Source: Ischnura elegans (taxonomy: Eukaryota > Arthropoda > Insecta > Odonata > Coenagrionidae). From it: a stretch of 64,000 nt of DNA. A program made the translations under genes and the position numbers. Positions 15,818 to 43,590 of this stretch are shown one piece after another. The DNA lies in assembly GCF_921293095.1 (NCBI RefSeq), contig NC_060251.1, positions 62,265,585 through 62,329,584 on the forward strand, given 5' to 3'. The notes beneath the pieces were generated by a model, which worked only from the letters and a program-made list of their open reading frames with translations, was not told the DNA's origin and did not search any database. Within the stretch, counting starts at the first letter, position 1; every line of letters starts with the position of its first letter.

Positions 15818-16972
15818 TTGAATTTATGTGAAATAAAAGCTTCCCAGAGTCTATACAGAGACACCAGACTTGTAATTGACACTGGGAAACAGATCACACA
15901 AGAAATTATCATTAACCAAGGAGTTAGACAGGGTTGCAGCCTATCCCAAACCTTTTTTAATCTATATATAGATGACGTTCAGAGAATATGGAAAGAGAAT
16001 AATGTATCACCAGGCATAGAATTGCAACCATCTCAATACTTAAATACATCTACATAATACCCCGCAAGCCGCCTAAAAGGCGTGTGGCAGGGGGTGTTAG
16101 GACACCAGCCGTTTACAGCTATTAAAAAAAAGGAAAACTCTAACGAGGTTGGGACAAGCGTTTATTAAAGTCCTTTATTGTTCGGGGGAAAAACGAATTC
16201 CCATATCTATCCGTTCGGCAAAAAATCTCTCTTAATTTATCGCTTCTGTCGGACCTTAATACATTGCTGTTTGCTGACGATCAGGTTATAATACAAGATA
16301 AAGAGGACAAACTCCACATGGCAGTACACAGACTACACCAGTTGAGCAAACTATACAACCTGAGAATTTCAAAAACCAAAACAAAGACTATGGCATTTTT
16401 TGGAAGCAACCCGATACGAACAAAAATTGTTATTGAGGATCAAGTCTTGGAGCAAGTGTCGCACTTCCAGTACTTAGGATGCGATATTACACATGACGAG
16501 GAAAAAGATATTATAAATAAGGTCAACAATTTCCAGAGAATATGTGGGACAATTAGAAGAACTCTAAAAAGCAAAACAAGAAAAGAAACACAAATAAAAT
16601 TTTACAAAGTGATGGCAGTCCCTACTGTACTCTACAGATCAGAATGTTGGGTACCAAAAAAGAATGAATTAAGGCAGATAGAATCATCGGAAATGAAATT
16701 TTTAAGATCAGTAAAACGCTGCACAAGATTGGATAAAATAAGAAACACCCAAATAAGAAATGAACTGGGTGTCCAGGCAGTCACTGACAAACTACAATAC
16801 TATAATAGATGGTAGGTACATTTACTTCGAATGCCAAATGAAAGAATTCCAAAACAAGCAATGGAATATCAACCATTTGGCAAGATAAGTATAGGAAGAC
16901 CAAGGAAAAGATGGTAATGTGGAGCCGGAACAGGCTTAGCAGCCTAATCCTGGAAGGAAGAAGAAGATTCAC
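15818..16972 (+). pseudogene. Dead LINE reverse transcriptase split by a short retroelement
   Basis: The left part (15818-16049) encodes SLYRDTRLVIDTGKQ and NQGVRQGCSLS (RT motif B). The right part (16255 onward) encodes LLFADDQVIIQD (catalytic FADD), a TKTKTMAF segment, HFQYLGCDI (thumb) and a C-terminal GTIRRTLKSKTRKETQIKFY. Removing the 205-bp insert and one target copy restores YLNT-LLFADD in frame, so the two halves are one gene. Stop codons (after YYNRW near 16814, and within RKRW* near 16914) plus 5' truncation show it is inactive. Domain style matches LINEs that are widespread in insects; the clade is not assigned. Confidence 0.85.
16050..16254 (+). mobile_element. Short retroelement (SINE-like) inside the LINE
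   Basis: The 205-bp insert begins CTACATAATACCCCGCAAGC and includes GGCGTGTGGCAGGGGGTG. It is flanked by CTTAAATACAT (16039-16049) and CTTAATACAT (16255-16264), an imperfect 10-11-bp duplication. A diverged relative lies at about 63025-63205. Pol III boxes are not obvious, so 'SINE' is provisional. Confidence 0.65.
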
Positions 16973-28850: not shown

Positions 28851-31420
28851 CCCTCACAGTTAGTTTCCCAAGGGTGGGGGAATTTACTGAAATATCAGAA
28901 AATGGCACAATATTTTAATATTTTTACAAGAGAATAAATACGTATCTAAAAAAAGATAGCAGTTTGGAGAGAGGAATGGAGAGCTGCATCTAATCATTAT
29001 TGACTCATGATGTTGACGATTAAAATATATCGATAGTTAACTGTTGACTTTGGAACAATGGCGAATCTTACTTGTTAGACAAAATTTGTTATTTAGCGCT
29101 CGATAGCTAAAAATCAATGTTTTGTGCCCGATTAAAATATTATGGTAAAATGACTTTAGCAGAATTCCGGACAAACGCCGAACTAATTTTTCGGAGCTCT
29201 TTATGTTATAATAGAGAACTTTTAACCCAATATTTTTACTTGTGATAATTATTTCCGACATTTCTTTTTTTTACACATAAAATATCAGCGAGAAAATTTG
29301 TTCGCAGTTTTACTTCGGTATTTAATTTTGTATATAATAACTGTGTTTAATTTTAGCTCGGGAAACAGCTTCATGGGTTTATTTCCTTAACTCAGTGGCT
29401 ATCACATTTAGATTTGTCATTGGGTGATGTATTAACTGCTCAAAACTGGTGATAAAATTTTATTTTTCAAGTACACTGCACGCCTTTTTTGTGGATTTTT
29501 TTTAGCGATGTACTTCTTGTGGTGTCCCATTTATTGGGGGAATAAATTTTCTTGAGAATCGAATGACTCGATAAACGCGCTTTACATTTTTTTTCGAAAA
29601 ATATCGAGTATCACGTTGGGAGAAAATCTTTCGCCAGCAAAACATGATTTTTTCCTGACTATAAAATCCGATCTGTCCTACGTCTCCGGCCGCACTGTGG
29701 TTTTGCCTCTCCTCATTTTTCGAATATGGTAACGAGGCTGTGAGAGACTGAGACATAGTTTAATGCTAAGAGTACCCAGGTTTTACGGTATGTGTTAATA
29801 GTAACAACGTTAAGGCTTTCCTTGCCTGATTTAGAAACACCATTTTTTACAGAAGAAAAGTAAATAAAGAAGCGGATGAGATCCTAAAAACCTCCCTAAC
29901 TCAACTATTAATTATTCGTAATCACTTCTTAATTTTTTTGGCTGGATTACTGGTTAGGGACTTCGTGACCCTGATCGTGCCTGACACTTAAGTTGATATA
30001 TATTACCCTGGGAGCGTAAACAAAGAAAAAAAGATAACTAGTAAACAGCATAGATAAGACGTGACCCTGAAATGAAGTGAAAAATAATTTGAAAATGAAC
30101 GAAAAACAGAGTATATTAAACTATTGTTAGACCTAACAGAAACTTACACTTCTACGCAAGGACTAAAAGAAAAAAAGCTACTAATTTAGACAGTCGTATT
30201 GGTAGTGATGGCGTAACTTTGTTGTAACTTTGTAAACTATTCATTGCGGTTTTGGATAGGGCGGAGTTAATTTTTTTCCATTCTACCCTCTATGCAGAAT
30301 GGCTATTTTTTACATGTTAGGTGTGATATAGGTATATATTTAATTTTTTGTATCCATGAATAATCATGAAAATTTCCTGCGTAGGTACGTGAAAATTCGG
30401 CTTGCGTCTAGTCTCACATTCAAATCTAAGCCCGGCTACTTTTATATTCAGTTAGATTTTCATTGTTGAATTTGACCACATGGGCAAGGCGAGCTATTTT
30501 TTTATACGTTTCCTCTCAGCAACAATTCGAGTTGCACGATTGGTTGCTCGATTCTAGTGAATTTGAAAAGTGACAGGAAATGAGTGAGTGGTTCGGCCAA
30601 GTACCTCTTTTTTGCCATGCAGCTTCAACTTGCTTCAAGTAAAAGTGTTTCCTCTTCCATTCGAAGTTACATCATTTCCTCCATTAGTATTGATCAATTT
30701 ACTACCCCAGCGAAACTTCTTAGCCTAAGGCTTGTGTCCTTTTTTTTCTCTCCGGTTATATTTTATGGTATCAACTTTGGAAATTTGTTCCAATGTGTCT
30801 GACTCGTCATTTCACACTCAGCTCAAAATATTTATTTCGTTATTTTGAACGGGAGTGGCTTTTATTTGAGCTTGGACTTATTGTTAGGGAGTATCGTCCC
30901 CTATACCTATCCTCCATTGAAGATGCATTGATGCAAATGCATGCAGGAAATGCATTTTATGATTAGCTAGCTATCTGTTCTATTGTACATGAGGGAAGGT
31001 TGTATCGTTAGAAAATGTTTATCCATCCAAAACTTTCATAAGGAGGGCTAACGTTATACATCTATTCCCTTAGTTATGATTTTTTTGTGGAAAAACTGTG
31101 GGAATACTGTTATGGCAAGTACGGGAAGTAATAATCTATTTGTAAGTTTAAACTTCGAAAGACTAGCGTTTGATACTTCGTGGTTGAGTATCTTTCTAGA
31201 TTGAGTGTCAAGCGACTTAACTTATGAAAAAAAAAATAGTTTAGCTCCTAACAAAGTTCGGTGGTTAACAATAAATGGGAAGAAACAGTGAAAAGGAAAA
31301 TTTTGAAGAAACTCTGAAACATTTATGTCATTTTTATTTGCGAAGACGGTCGTGACCAAAGCGATGCCACTCCTGGCGATAGCTTAAACAATTCGGCTTA
31401 TGAGGCTGTCGGTTAATCAC
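28851..31420. other. Unassigned AT-rich stretch
   Basis: No gene, RNA or repeat end recognised. Confidence 0.4.
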
Positions 31421-31870
31421 TATAATAATACTCGCACGCTCCGCGCGCTCGTTAAGGGGCTCCGCCCCTTAAAAACCCCGGTTCCGGCTTCGCCGTCTAC
31501 ATTTGTGGTCGCTCGAAGACTTTTAAAGTTTGAATAATCTCGCCTCAGCTAGGGGCCGGCTTCGCCGGCCAGGGGGTAGGGAGGCGCCCCACTCATTCCT
31601 CGAAACGGCTTCGCCGTTCCTCGCTGGAGAGCGGCTTCGCCGCCCAGGGGTTGAGTGTGAGTTGAGATGGGTGGAGTCTAAAGCGGCTGCGCCGCTTGAA
31701 CATCGGGGCGGCTTCGCCGCCCGAGGGTTACTGAAGCTCCCCCTCTCCTACGCATGTCACTCCTCGGAACGGCTTAGCCGTTCCTCGTTGTGGGGCGGCT
31801 TCGCCGCCTTGGGGTCGAGGAGCCCCCCGCGGCTGCTTCGCTTAGTCCTCATTAATGCTCTTCTCCACCG
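31420..31870. repeat. Array of about ten GC-rich perfect hairpins
   Basis: Short palindromes on the theme GGCGGCTTCGCCGCC recur at about 31453 (AAGGGGCTCCGCCCCTT), 31485, 31557 (GGCCGGCTTCGCCGGCC), 31604, 31631, 31682, 31706, 31771, 31795 and 31828. Loops are TTCG, TGCG, TTAG or TCCG; arms vary while keeping complementarity (for example AACGGCTTCGCCGTT versus GGGCGGCTTCGCCGCCC). The open plus-strand frame 31530-32003 across it is arginine/proline/glycine-rich low complexity and is not considered a gene. Origin unknown. Confidence 0.7.
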
Positions 31871-31887
31871 AGAGGGGTGCCCAGGGG

Positions 31888-32700
31888 GATTCGGGGGTTT
31901 TAATGTTTTATGCATGCGGTCACTAATCGTCCACAGTGATCACGTAGCGATGATTGTAAAGGGTAGTGCAATGCGGAGTAATAGTGGCGACAAGTACCCA
32001 TAAAAGAAGACTTAATGGCAAGTTTTTCATTTTTTGCGGGGGTTCCAACGGATTACCGGGGGGTTTATACTTGTGTTAAACCAGTGGTCACAAATCGTTA
32101 TCATAAATTCCGTGCCGGTAAGTCTTAGGGGTCCGGAACATTGGTCTGACGATTCTTTTACCTGGAGAGGCGATTTATTAGAAATTTTTTGGGAGGTTTC
32201 ATGGGGTTATCGGGGGTTTTAATAAGTGGTTAGGGCAACGGTTAATTTGTGACGAAAACTACTCGTAGAAAAGTAGAAGAGTACCCAAATAGGAGACTAA
32301 ATGACCCATGTTACGTTTGGGAGGGATTTCAGGGGGATACCGGGGGTTTAAATGTGTGTACTCCTGGCGGTCACCATCCATTTACATAAATTCCGCGTGG
32401 ATGAGTCGTTGGGGGCGGTGGAATAGTCACGTAAAGTACCCAAAAAGTAGACTTATATGCAAAATTTAATTTTTTGGGGGGGTGTATGAGGGTTTACCGG
32501 GGGTTTATAGGTTTTTACTGCCAGCGGTCATCAATCGTCCACATCAATTCCGTAGCGATGAGTGGTAAGGATTGGAAAAGCGGCGGAATTGTGACGAAAA
32601 GTACCCGAAAAGGCTATTTATGTGCAAATTTTAATTTTTTAGGGGGTTTCGGGGGGTTTAAAGTTGACGATACTATATGTTCACATTCATTTACTGTCAT
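31888..32700 (+). repeat. Tandem repeat of about 130-165-bp units beginning CGGGGGTTT
   Basis: Units start near 31888, 32056, 32209, 32342, 32499 and 32654. Each starts with a G-run plus TTTA, then in most units CGGTCAC-x-AATCG, ATAAATTCCG, GATGAGT, GTGACGAAAAGTACCC, a GACTTA box and TTTTAATTTTTTGGGGG. Units are diverged, one (32209-32341) is shortened and the last is partial. It abuts the hairpin array and may be part of the same element. Confidence 0.7.
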
Positions 32701-33563
32701 TTCTAACAGAAGTGTGCCTTATGACATCCATATTTCGAGAGTAATACAGTAAAAAGCAAACCAGTCCCCGAAAAAAGTGAGTAGTGCCCGCCATTTTTAT
32801 TTTTTTCGGTTAAATATATTGAATCATTTATTAAACGTTCATGTTTTTTGAAAAACAATAAATAAGTGTTTGTAACTACAAAGTTTGAAAGAAATCGGTC
32901 AGGTTAAAATTGACATAATCTTCTATTAATCTTTTGGAAATCGTAATTTTCGGTGATTTTCGGAATATTTTAATTTTTTTCTGAATAACTAAGGACGACG
33001 AAAGACAATTGTTACCTATATGTCGTAGACGATGTTATAAGCATATATAATAATCATTTTCGTTATCCTATACCTTAAATTAAGTCGAAGGGAGCGGAAG
33101 TTATGAAATTTTAATAGAAAAACTAATTTTTGGACGCCATTTTGGCTGGAATTTTCTTTAAAATAAATTAACAACATTACGTAGTTACGTGCCCACGTTC
33201 ATCAGCTTTCAGGAAATGCATTAGCGATCCGTGTGGCACACACCATTCGCGCGCAGTAAAATAAAAACCGAAAGACTGTCCCCGAAAAAAGCCCGATTTC
33301 GGCCATTTTGTCGTCCTAGCGACGACACGTGGCGGAAACTTCCGGTTTTCGGATTTTTCCTCCGGATCATTTCCGGTTCCCCGCACGCGTGCCAAATTTC
33401 AGCTCTCCAGCACGTCTGGAAGTGGTCGGGAATTTGTATCCATGAGTGAGTCAGTTACCTCAAGGGCTGTATATAATAGAGACTCATAATTTTTAGAAAT
33501 ATTCATTTATGAAGACTGATTGATGATTTTGGCTTTATTACCTAGCTTCTTTAGCTTTAAGTC
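32701..33563. other. Flank of the hairpin/tandem-repeat element
   Basis: Includes two CCCCGAAAAAAG phrases (32766 and 33280) and a GC-rich patch (33230-33440) with a phrase starting GCCAAATTTCAGCTCTCCAG, reminiscent of dispersed arthropod repeats. It may be the far end of the same unit. No protein is recognised. Confidence 0.3.
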
Positions 33564-33635
33564 TCCCATGTTGTCTTGTGGCTAGGATACCTGGCTTTCA
33601 CCCAGAAGGCCCGGGTTCGATTCCCGGCATGGGAA
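33564..33635 (+). tRNA. tRNA-Glu(TTC)-like gene
   Basis: Seventy-two bases fold as tRNA-Glu. Acceptor TCCCATG pairs with CATGGGA, with discriminator A. The anticodon TTC (33597-33599) sits in loop CTTTCAC, and the T arm is CCGGGTTCGATTCCCGG with an intact B box. A T run (ATATTTTT) follows as a pol III terminator. Departures from usual insect tRNA-Glu: the D-arm start reads TGTCTTG where GGTCTAG is normal, so A14 is lost and the A box weakened, and there is a C-A mismatch at the base of the anticodon stem. About 70 bases later an AAAATAAAATAAAA run occurs, so a retroposed or SINE-head copy is possible. Confidence 0.75.
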
Positions 33636-41699: not shown

Positions 41700-42520
41700 A
41701 TTGGAAATAAAGGAATAAAACTTTGTAAGGTTCACTATTATTTTAATATGGGCACTTATTATTGTGCCTTGCCTTCCAGCGATATTGCATCTATGGTCTG
41801 AGATGGAACTTGTACATCTTTAGTCTGAATGTGGTATAAGAGAGATAATTCTGTAGGCGATTTAAATCATACCAAAATGTATCATTTTATTCAAAAGCTC
41901 TCGCTACTGGCTGATCGACGTAAGTTAGTTAGTTAATTGTCCTGGGAGTTCAGAGATGCAACCAGCTTGCCATGAAAGTATGCTGAGGTTATCTAATGAA
42001 CCGCTTCAGAAAATATATGCCATTGGCTTTTGTTATCGGGTCAAACTGAAGACCATTGTCGCTATACACACATAAATATTCACAAATACAAAGATCTTGT
42101 GCTCTTCAGTCCACCATTCGGACCGATCGATCATTTTCAATACTTTCGTGTTTTCTCTTAACAACTGTCCTTTGTTACGAATAGGTGTTAGGTATCATTT
42201 TAAAGAATAAATTATCCTTTTTTTGTTAATTTAAAGGTGATATTTAGAGGTTTGCCTCTTAGTTAAAAAATGGCAAAGTACGATTTTTCAAAAGACGGAT
42301 GGCGAAGTGGCGTAACCCTCGTAACAAAAATCGAATTTACGCCAATATCACGCTTACAAGTAAAATATGTAAGAAAAAAACATCCTTCCAACTGGATAGA
42401 CAGGTGTCTTCTTTTAAGTGGACGTTCTTGTAGCTCGCAGGCGAATGGGATACATTTGAACCGCAGCCGTGAAATCGACAGCCACCGTATTTTGACGGTC
42501 TTCCTCTCGTCTCTTTGCAG
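41700..42520. other. Sequence upstream of the USP exon, ending in a splice acceptor
   Basis: AT-rich until 42400. The last 30 bases (TCTTCCTCTCGTCTCTTTGCAG) form a strong polypyrimidine tract and AG acceptor at 42519-42520, implying at least one untranslated exon further upstream. Confidence 0.5.
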
Positions 42521-42548
42521 CTCGAGCGAAACGACAGCAGCCACCGCA

Positions 42549-42827
42549 ATGGCCCAATGCACCACGGAATCGGCGCCTGGTTCCCTCTTGAGACGCCCAA
42601 GGGACGAGGCGCCATGGGCCTCCTCGGACGTCGGCGGGGGCCACGCCATGCTCGGCGGGGGCGTCAACCGCCGTCCCCCGATGGAAGGGGGCACGGCGGC
42701 GGCGACGACCAACCCTGCCGGGACTTCTCCGGTGACCTCGGCGGCTACCACGCCGACCCCGTCCGGCGCCAAGGGTCTGCTCAACGCCCCCGGACAGAAC
42801 AATTGCTTCCTCAACAGTGCCGTACAG
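42549..42827 (+). CDS. ec: First coding exon of a USP53/USP54/Echinus-type ubiquitin protease
   Basis: The exon runs from the acceptor at 42520 to a GTGAGT donor at 42828. ATG 42549 (context CGCAATGG) opens 93 codons in phase 0. Residues 1-73 are low complexity (Gly/Ala/Thr/Pro, with repeated ATT and TP motifs) and are probably disordered. Residues 76-93 are GLLNAPGQNNCFLNSAVQ, the catalytic Cys box of the USP fold with Cys86 as nucleophile. The GLLN-x-PGQN-x-CFLNSAVQ wording is specific to USP53/USP54 and Drosophila Echinus. The family acts on ubiquitin chains; Echinus is known for roles in eye cell survival. The His box and the rest of the domain must lie beyond the window. An in-frame ATG at 42270 exists upstream, but the acceptor argues against its use. 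The symbol follows the Drosophila homologue. Confidence 0.85.
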
Positions 42828-43590
42828 GTGAGTGGGACGAAGTGGGATGAGGGTGCATAAATCAAGATTCTACCTGGCCGTGGTGTTGGGCGATTACAAT
42901 TTAAATTAATGGAAGAGTCCATTATTTTAGTTTTTTTAATCGAAATTTTGGTCCATGTTAATTAATGCCGAATTTGGGATTTTGATCGCGAATCGATCAT
43001 AACCATAAAAAATTATTTACCATGCCAAAGAATTTTTTTATGACGGAAGTTTTTTTCCTGAAATGAGGCTTGTGAGAACTGATCTGAGAAGCACATGTCA
43101 ATCTTTCGCAGTGTTGATTTAATTAAAAATTAGTTTCCTATAGACAATATTCTTCTTTTGCATATTTCTAACTTGAAGAATAAGTAAAGCGTTTGAGTAA
43201 CTGCAATTCTTAAGTACTGTTATAATAATCTAGTGTATTAAATGCTCTTAAATCATTCATATAAAATCAGCCTTGTTATTAATCGCATCTTCCTATGGGT
43301 CGCTGGGAAGTGAACTAAACGTATTATGATGTATTGAATTCCGGTGCTTACGGTGACATGACTCTTGGTTATCCGAGCCCTTGCTGCTTTCATTGTGCGG
43401 AACACTCGATCGATCATCACGTTTTGCGTCAACTCATTTCTTACTGGAAGTTAATTTCTCTTTTTTTCTTATGGGTGCTTTTTTTCTACCGGCCACTGCA
43501 TTTCCCCAATTTTGAAACTGTTATAATTTCATCGTATTTTAGGATTTTAATTTTGCATCCCAAGTCCTTTTTGTGAAATGCATAAAGTAC

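Follow-up and report, generated by a model that had tools for sequence, protein, structure and literature searches.

A GC-rich hairpin array in Ischnura elegans as the probable 3' end region of a non-autonomous Helitron-like transposon

The GC-rich hairpin array in a 64,000-nucleotide stretch of Ischnura elegans DNA (the window; NC_060251.1, positions 62,265,585 to 62,329,584, forward strand) can with high confidence (probability about 0.9) be attributed to a non-autonomous rolling-circle transposon of Helitron-like type, which occupies 31431-33482 on the minus strand and of which the array forms the 3' (right) end region. Copies of this element have fixed ends, 5'-TC...CGAG-3', in unrelated flanks, occupy an A/T site, are dispersed through the genome, include near-identical pairs and are joined in base-perfect head-to-tail junctions. 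Against the attribution stand an end in CGAG instead of CTRR, a sub-terminal palindrome at 21 nt from the end and not at 10-15 nt, inner hairpins that vary without compensation, mixed evidence on the loops, and GAG in front of five of nine compared copies. The ends of the window copy were set by comparing genome copies, which gave the following features.

31431..33482, minus strand: whole copy of the non-autonomous Helitron-like transposon, 2052 bp
33465..33482, minus strand: 5' terminus TCTCTATTATATACAGCC; in locus L199 an identical 5' start, TCTCTATTATATACAGC, comes after a GCGAG junction
31431..31451, minus strand: 3' terminus CGAGCGCGCGGAGCGTGCGAG, ending in CGAG, not CTRR; this exact 21-mer was counted genome-wide
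31430..31430, minus strand: host base T adjoining the 3' end (plus strand: A), the A/T target being deduced from a nested insertion
31880..32662, minus strand: about six diverged tandem repeats within the element, spacing 130-164 bp, with six copies of a 26-nt word (family D2)

In minus-strand orientation the element begins with TC and its last bases are GCGCGCGGAGCGTGCGAG, after which comes T. The window copy has T at its 3' side and GAG at its 5' side. The feature is larger than the interval 31420-31870 assigned to it in the preliminary description, and reaches 33482. All 5' starts that follow GCGAG junctions in the fetched loci begin with TC, as canonical Helitrons do. The 3' boundary, CGAG/T, was placed by flank comparison and does not conform to CTRR, and we therefore name the element Helitron-like with a variant end and not a canonical Helitron. 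As to the palindrome expected 10-15 nt before a Helitron 3' end, the 21-bp palindrome here ends 21 nt and a 15-nt hairpin 3 nt before the terminus. Terminal inverted repeats are absent: between the first 80 and the last 150 bases of the element the longest common inverted word is 5 bp in the window copy and 7 bp in the unit at L177, against a shuffle mean of 6.4. Stop-to-stop frames are no longer than 158 codons (window copy) and 122 codons (L177 unit), and the longer pairs among the internal tandem repeats are 67-73% identical. About 80 bp beyond the 5' end, at 33564-33635 on the plus strand, lies a tRNA-Glu (TTC) gene or tRNA-derived repeat.

The array itself consists of nine GGCnnnGCC cores, all within 31420-31870, and an imperfect terminal hairpin, and extends over 31434-31808, in good agreement with the roughly ten palindromes first reported.

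31434..31448, minus strand: terminal hairpin GCGCGC-GGA-GCGTGC with one G-T pair (A.C mismatch on the plus strand), ending 3 nt before the element 3' end
31452..31472, minus strand: sub-terminal 21-bp palindrome TTAAGGGGC-GGA-GCCCCTTAA, ending 21 nt before the element 3' end
31485..31495, minus strand: short hairpin CGGC-GAA-GCCG
31554..31570, minus strand: palindrome GGCCGGC-GAA-GCCGGCC
31604..31618, minus strand: palindrome AACGGC-GAA-GCCGTT
31631..31643, minus strand: palindrome GCGGC-GAA-GCCGC
31681..31697, minus strand: palindrome AAGCGGC-GCA-GCCGCTT
31706..31722, minus strand: palindrome GGGCGGC-GAA-GCCGCCC
31766..31784, minus strand: palindrome GGAACGGC-TAA-GCCGTTCC, with loop TAA here and GAA in most aligned copies having this hairpin
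31794..31808, minus strand: palindrome GGCGGC-GAA-GCCGCC

The stem counts far exceed those of shuffled sequence. With a three-base loop and a perfect stem of at least 5 bp, eight palindromes are present in 31420-31870, whereas 1000 dinucleotide shuffles of this segment gave 0.66 on average and never more than 4; for stems of at least 6 bp there are seven (mean 0.17, maximum 3, 1000 dinucleotide shuffles). The whole 64-kb window contains 11 GC-rich perfect hairpins (stem at least 6 bp, loop 3-5), six of them in the array and five in the rest, and the GC content of the array segment is 63% (over 400 bp) versus 39% for the window. The terminal hairpin has a mismatch, and the core centred at 31490 pairs over just 4 bp. 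The loops comprise three bases, GGC-TTC-GCC on the plus strand with a C-G closing pair, as do all perfect hairpins with stems of at least 5 bp listed in 31300-32000. That interval has no TTCG tetraloops, and the proposal of TTCG-type loops forming very stable RNA hairpins was rejected. RNA folding found the array segment more stable than 100 shuffles (z = −2.7 for the plus and −3.7 for the minus strand); three other nearby segments of about 450 bp gave z between −0.3 and 0.5. A 157-aa ORF spans the array (31530-32003, plus strand); it has no Pfam family match and is taken as a by-product of the high GC content.

The family was followed through the genome (1.72 Gb, 110 contigs). The hairpin core CGGCTTCGCCG was found 9322 + 8678 = 18,000 times, against 135 + 130 = 265 for the reversed control. 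At 1.437 Mb on contig C1 the array sits in an 1832-bp unit present in three tandem copies of 99% identity, which the window matches piecewise from about 31421 to 33485. Ten copies, picked for carrying the end ACTCGCACGCTCC, have the same last base in unrelated flanks, and T is the next base for 32 of 32 3' termini in the fetched loci. Genome-wide the exact 3' 21-mer, counted with a pattern fixed to CGAG, is followed by T in 814 of 821 cases and by another base in seven, part of the 814 being head-to-tail junctions in which the T belongs to the next copy. The 5' word TCCYATCTATATACAGCC (pattern fixed to TCC) is preceded by A in 317, by C or T in 26 and by GAG in 485 of the 828 occurrences counted, a count that excludes G not preceded by GA. 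Since GAG is the end of the previous copy, which was observed in the fetched loci and is assumed for the other GAG/TC junctions, the 485 occurrences correspond to head-to-tail junctions with zero bases between the copies. Among the nine copies compared at this side, four have A and five, including the window copy, have GAG; before L211-L213 this GAG is the preceding copy's end, and L218 also has it. For listed ends, which cover C1 to C3:16.15 Mb, 28 of 42 5' ends with A in front are matched by an exact 3' end 1831-2968 bp downstream, mostly giving lengths near 1.83, 2.0 and 2.2 kb, one has it at 6950 bp, and for 13 none lies within 15 kb downstream.

Together with these flank counts, a nested insertion on contig C4 indicates that insertion takes place between A and T without target duplication, as for Helitrons. 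By comparison with the reference unit, the insert lies between A433 and T434 of a host copy, with no base duplicated or lost: the host occupies L220:4946-5382, the insert runs from L220:5383 to L219:3450, and the host resumes at L219:3451-4850. From their continuity, both halves probably belong to one host copy. The insert consists of a 1836-bp and a 2732-bp unit that are dissimilar, and the arrangement fits an A/T target without duplication or loss that received a two-unit block at one target. Copies on different chromosomes are up to 99.6% identical (C8 versus C5, 99.6%; C1 versus C2, 99.5%), which argues for recent movement; considered with the 84.6-86.0% identity of the window copy to eight other copies, this points to both old and recent subfamilies. 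A divergent subfamily at L178 and L179 (C1:1822500-1842300) has internally duplicated hairpin arrays, with duplication periods of 13 to 313 bp (including 26, 80, 117 and 226), and a last hairpin CGCGC-GCA-GCGCG.

A satellite or segmental repeat array whose transposon-like units are spread by recombination could account for the 485 head-to-tail junctions and for the spacing of adjacent listed 3' ends (100 ends), of which 26 of 99 neighbouring pairs are on the same strand and less than 3.2 kb apart; a higher-order repeat of about 44.3 kb is also suggested by coordinates on C4. The nested insertion, however, and solitary copies that have identical ends but unrelated flanks, argue for transposition and make this explanation very improbable. 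Recombination may have enlarged arrays afterwards, and it is a possible cause of the growth of single arrays. In the interval C4:98359189-98457671, where two RepHel frames of 1816 aa occur together with many head-to-tail junctions of the element, two pairs of features show a spacing of 44.29 kb. A separate tandem repeat with a palindromic core was seen at C1:9374601-9375605, where CGGCGACGCCG occurs eight times at a 142-bp period. An attribution to a Helentron or HINE with satellite-like central repeats and a 3' stem-loop has slightly more in its favour, in that the internal tandem repeats of about 155 bp are laid out like the central repeats described for an oyster HINE (PMC7492417) and insects carry DINE-1 and HINE elements (PMC4067079). 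We rejected it as unlikely on the basis of the target and the ends: TT is given as the preferred target of Helentrons, whereas the present site has A before and T after, and the 12-15 bp subterminal inverted repeats expected (PMC4067079) contrast with longest words of 5-7 bp here, as in shuffles.

The preliminary description also raised foreign DNA (bacterial, organellar or large-virus) or assembly contamination. Clusters of three GGCTTCGCC within about 100 bp are indeed seen in prokaryotes as well as in viral contigs (51 stretches, and at least 117 in a second scan), but an exact-pattern scan of viral contigs for the first hairpin with its neighbours gave none, and at blastn sensitivity the 601-bp segment matched neither phage nor plasmid records. 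The core occurs thousands of times in the genome, the best 40 matches of the 3' end fall on 15 of its contigs, and reverse-transcriptase ORFs and a tRNA gene share the window. A prokaryotic or viral origin was rejected in view of the missing phage and plasmid matches and the dispersal of the core, and foreign DNA in general is the least credible of the explanations weighed. Viral contig L005 carries, from 4154, nine different triloop palindromes (stem at least 5 bp, at least half G+C) within 400 bp. Pfam searches of four window ORFs gave RVT_1 in two, namely an open 606-aa frame at 308-2128 on the minus strand (E 1.6e-32) and a reverse-transcriptase ORF fragment at 16264-16815 on the plus strand (below the family cut-off), and no match for the other two; Rfam reported only the tRNA. 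An ORF at 42270-42860 on the plus strand, with the words GLLNAPGQNNCFLNSAVQ and without a Pfam match, is presumably similar to the beginning of USP53/54 (echinus). Identity to a catalogued transposon end had been named in the preliminary description as a refuting outcome, and comparison of genome copies does place the array at the end of a transposon. The repeated spread of a hairpin proposed there was borne out in outline: the array is copied within a transposable element, and its copies differ in the presence or absence of entire hairpins.

On the element strand, the loop is GNA in 118 of 134 unique GGCnnnGCC contexts (GAA 99, GCA 11, GGA 6, GTA 2). Mini-hairpins with GNA loops and at least two G-C pairs are described as extraordinarily stable, with a Tm of 78 °C for GCGAAGC (PMC4686876). 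CGGCnnnGCCG with loop GAA occurs 18,000 times genome-wide (265 in the reversed control), and variants with the middle, first or third base changed occur 2532 (713), 1714 (572) and 1296 (2035) times, in counts that span the whole genome beyond the element family and with controls that differ in composition. Among the variants, a changed middle base is commonest and a changed third base does not rise above control, in agreement with the GNA prediction; first-base variants exceed control, so that the leading G of the loop is not strictly kept. The counts thus lend moderate support to a GNA triloop. With DNA folding parameters the terminal hairpin has −5.3 kcal/mol on the element strand versus −2.7 on the other, and both strands are equal in energy for three of four hairpins tested.

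For comparison of the hairpins between copies, 62 array copies were reduced by similarity to 17 non-redundant ones, in rows chosen by terminal motif, which favours helix 12. Helix 10 was set on incorrect columns in this comparison, and its value of 20% is therefore an error that depresses the totals. Copies carry 8-11 palindromes near the 3' end (three copies counted), and all 17 aligned copies show pairing in both of the outermost hairpins. Covariation gave a mixed picture. Both sides change in 2 of 78 pairs, a value reached by 84 of 500 shuffles, and sliding the structure by −2 columns gave three two-sided pairs versus two in place; four cells are changed on both sides (1 of 500 shuffles reaches that) and the covariation score is 0.026 (0 of 500). 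The clear two-sided pair belongs to the sub-terminal hairpin (AU in 15 rows, GC in two), the two GC rows being neighbours in one subfamily (L178), and the other two-sided pair sits in a doubtful part of the alignment. In the L178 rows the sub-terminal hairpin changes from A-T to G-C and its loop from GGA to GTA, and the last hairpin from loop GGA to GCA and from a G-T to a G-C pair. Changes in the internal hairpins are mostly single and uncompensated, and the compensatory change suggested previously has weak and mixed support in the 17 copies, with that one clear pair in its favour. Whole hairpins are also missing: the one at alignment columns 271-289 is absent from L178:8208 and L213, where the break shows a short AAC match, and the one at columns 597-615 is absent from L213 exactly between CGAGGAA direct repeats. 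That all losses lie between CGAGGA repeats was rejected, as it is true for one of the two. The pairing of the outer hairpins in all 17 copies, the uncompensated change of the inner ones, the absent hairpins and the internal duplications suggest, from these few rows, that the outer hairpins are constrained and that the inner ones look like passengers multiplying by slippage.

For a non-autonomous Helitron-like element of this structure, a RepHel made elsewhere would nick at the 5' TC and the element strand would be displaced 5'-to-3' as single-stranded DNA, on which the GC-rich palindromes may form mini-hairpins with GNA triloops. One or two of these, the outermost, would then mark the place where the enzyme stops and the strand is rejoined. 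Head-to-tail arrays could arise from failed stopping, from circular templates or from repeated insertion at the left A/TC site; the dissimilar units of the C4 insert imply that arrays may also grow by the last route, beyond rolling-circle multimers. The inner hairpins are probably related to the terminator through duplication, and their gain and loss would come from slippage or from deletion between short repeats. More tentatively, the array might act as a bank of redundant GNA-triloop terminators in single-stranded DNA that pause or restart RepHel, suppress the capture of host flanks and favour base-perfect concatemers, a doubtful extension which, if true, would account for the 485 of 828 counted 5' ends directly after GAG. 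In the open-licence PMC literature, as judged by titles and the start of abstracts, a multi-hairpin, CGAG-ended Helitron was not found, nor by title and abstract a relevant paper on Odonata or damselfly Helitrons or on GC-rich hairpins in insects, and a term search of the main text of a damselfly genome paper (PMC10781644) gave no word beginning with helitron. Finders that require CTRR would be expected to miss CGAG-ended elements, and the share of Helitrons in this genome and in related ones may be underestimated.

Candidates for the autonomous partner are present. PF14214 has 119 matches genome-wide, 25 of them in open frames of 1481-1499 aa and others in frames of up to 1925 aa, and many of these frames also match PF05970. 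On C4, two 1816-aa RepHel copies lie among GAG/TC junctions of the same strand, and the PIF1 domain of the first ends 2.9 kb from a junction. Of the 16 PF14214 places on C1 to C3:16.15 Mb, three are neighbouring fragments of the same genes as others; among the 13 checked, none had the exact 3' terminus within 20 kb downstream, and an autonomous element with both termini was not seen. On C13 (L205) a distance of 95 nt separates the element from a following sequence that looks, by eye, like a canonical CTAG/TC Helitron junction, showing that nearness to RepHel can mean insertion, and this neighbour was rejected as proof of partnership. At L205 (around C13:16188775-16191962) canonical Helitrons appear, by eye, to stand in tandem, with ...GGGTCAGCTAG joined to TCTTATATATAAAAATGAATCG... 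Frame P0001, after the CTAG/TC junction, has no Pfam match above cut-off; we take it to resemble the N-terminus of a Helitron RepHel. The TC...CTAG ends of the L205 element have, by eye, no obvious sequence in common with the present element.

Among known systems, fungal and algal organelles show a likeness to the array, in that short GC-rich palindromes multiply there in AT-rich DNA. The present palindromes differ in lying on nuclear contigs, as part of a defined transposon. HINE and DINE-1 elements are likewise non-coding, with internal tandem repeats and a 3' stem-loop (PMC4067079, PMC7492417), but the present element is without their TT target and subterminal inverted repeats (PMC4067079). 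With canonical insect Helitrons (the Hel1A-like elements of PMC6544945 and that at L205) it shares the TC start, the 3' hairpin and an insect host; those described in PMC6544945 have a CTRR end and a single palindrome near it, compared to CGAG and many palindromes here. Adjacent head-to-tail Helitrons with a G/T junction were reported in maize and read there as two insertions (PMC2267711), and head-to-tail junctions and arrays are known in plants and bats (PMC5876387). The likeness to Helibat and Helraiser includes the 5'-TC, the A/T target without target site duplication, a palindrome near the 3' end, head-to-tail junctions and arrays, and high-copy non-autonomous families (PMC4778049, PMC5876387); the palindrome has ATT within its loop in Helraiser and a three-base loop here. 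Helraiser has TC and CTAG ends and an A/T target and forms circles; its 19-bp palindrome, 11 nt from the 3' end, acts as a terminator, the deletion of which lowered transposition without abolishing it, so that the hairpin is described as important and not essential (PMC4778049). In vitro, Helraiser junctions were made and cut on the top strand only (PMC5876387). The stop-signal experiments reported in PMC4778049 and PMC5876387 were made with a single reconstructed bat element; copies that vary naturally in hairpin number, solitary or arrayed, offer a way to ask how rolling-circle transposons stop. Compared with Helraiser, the damselfly element ends in CGAG instead of CTAG, and it carries two neighbouring hairpins at 3 and 21 nt from the end, with about 7-9 more upstream in the three copies counted.
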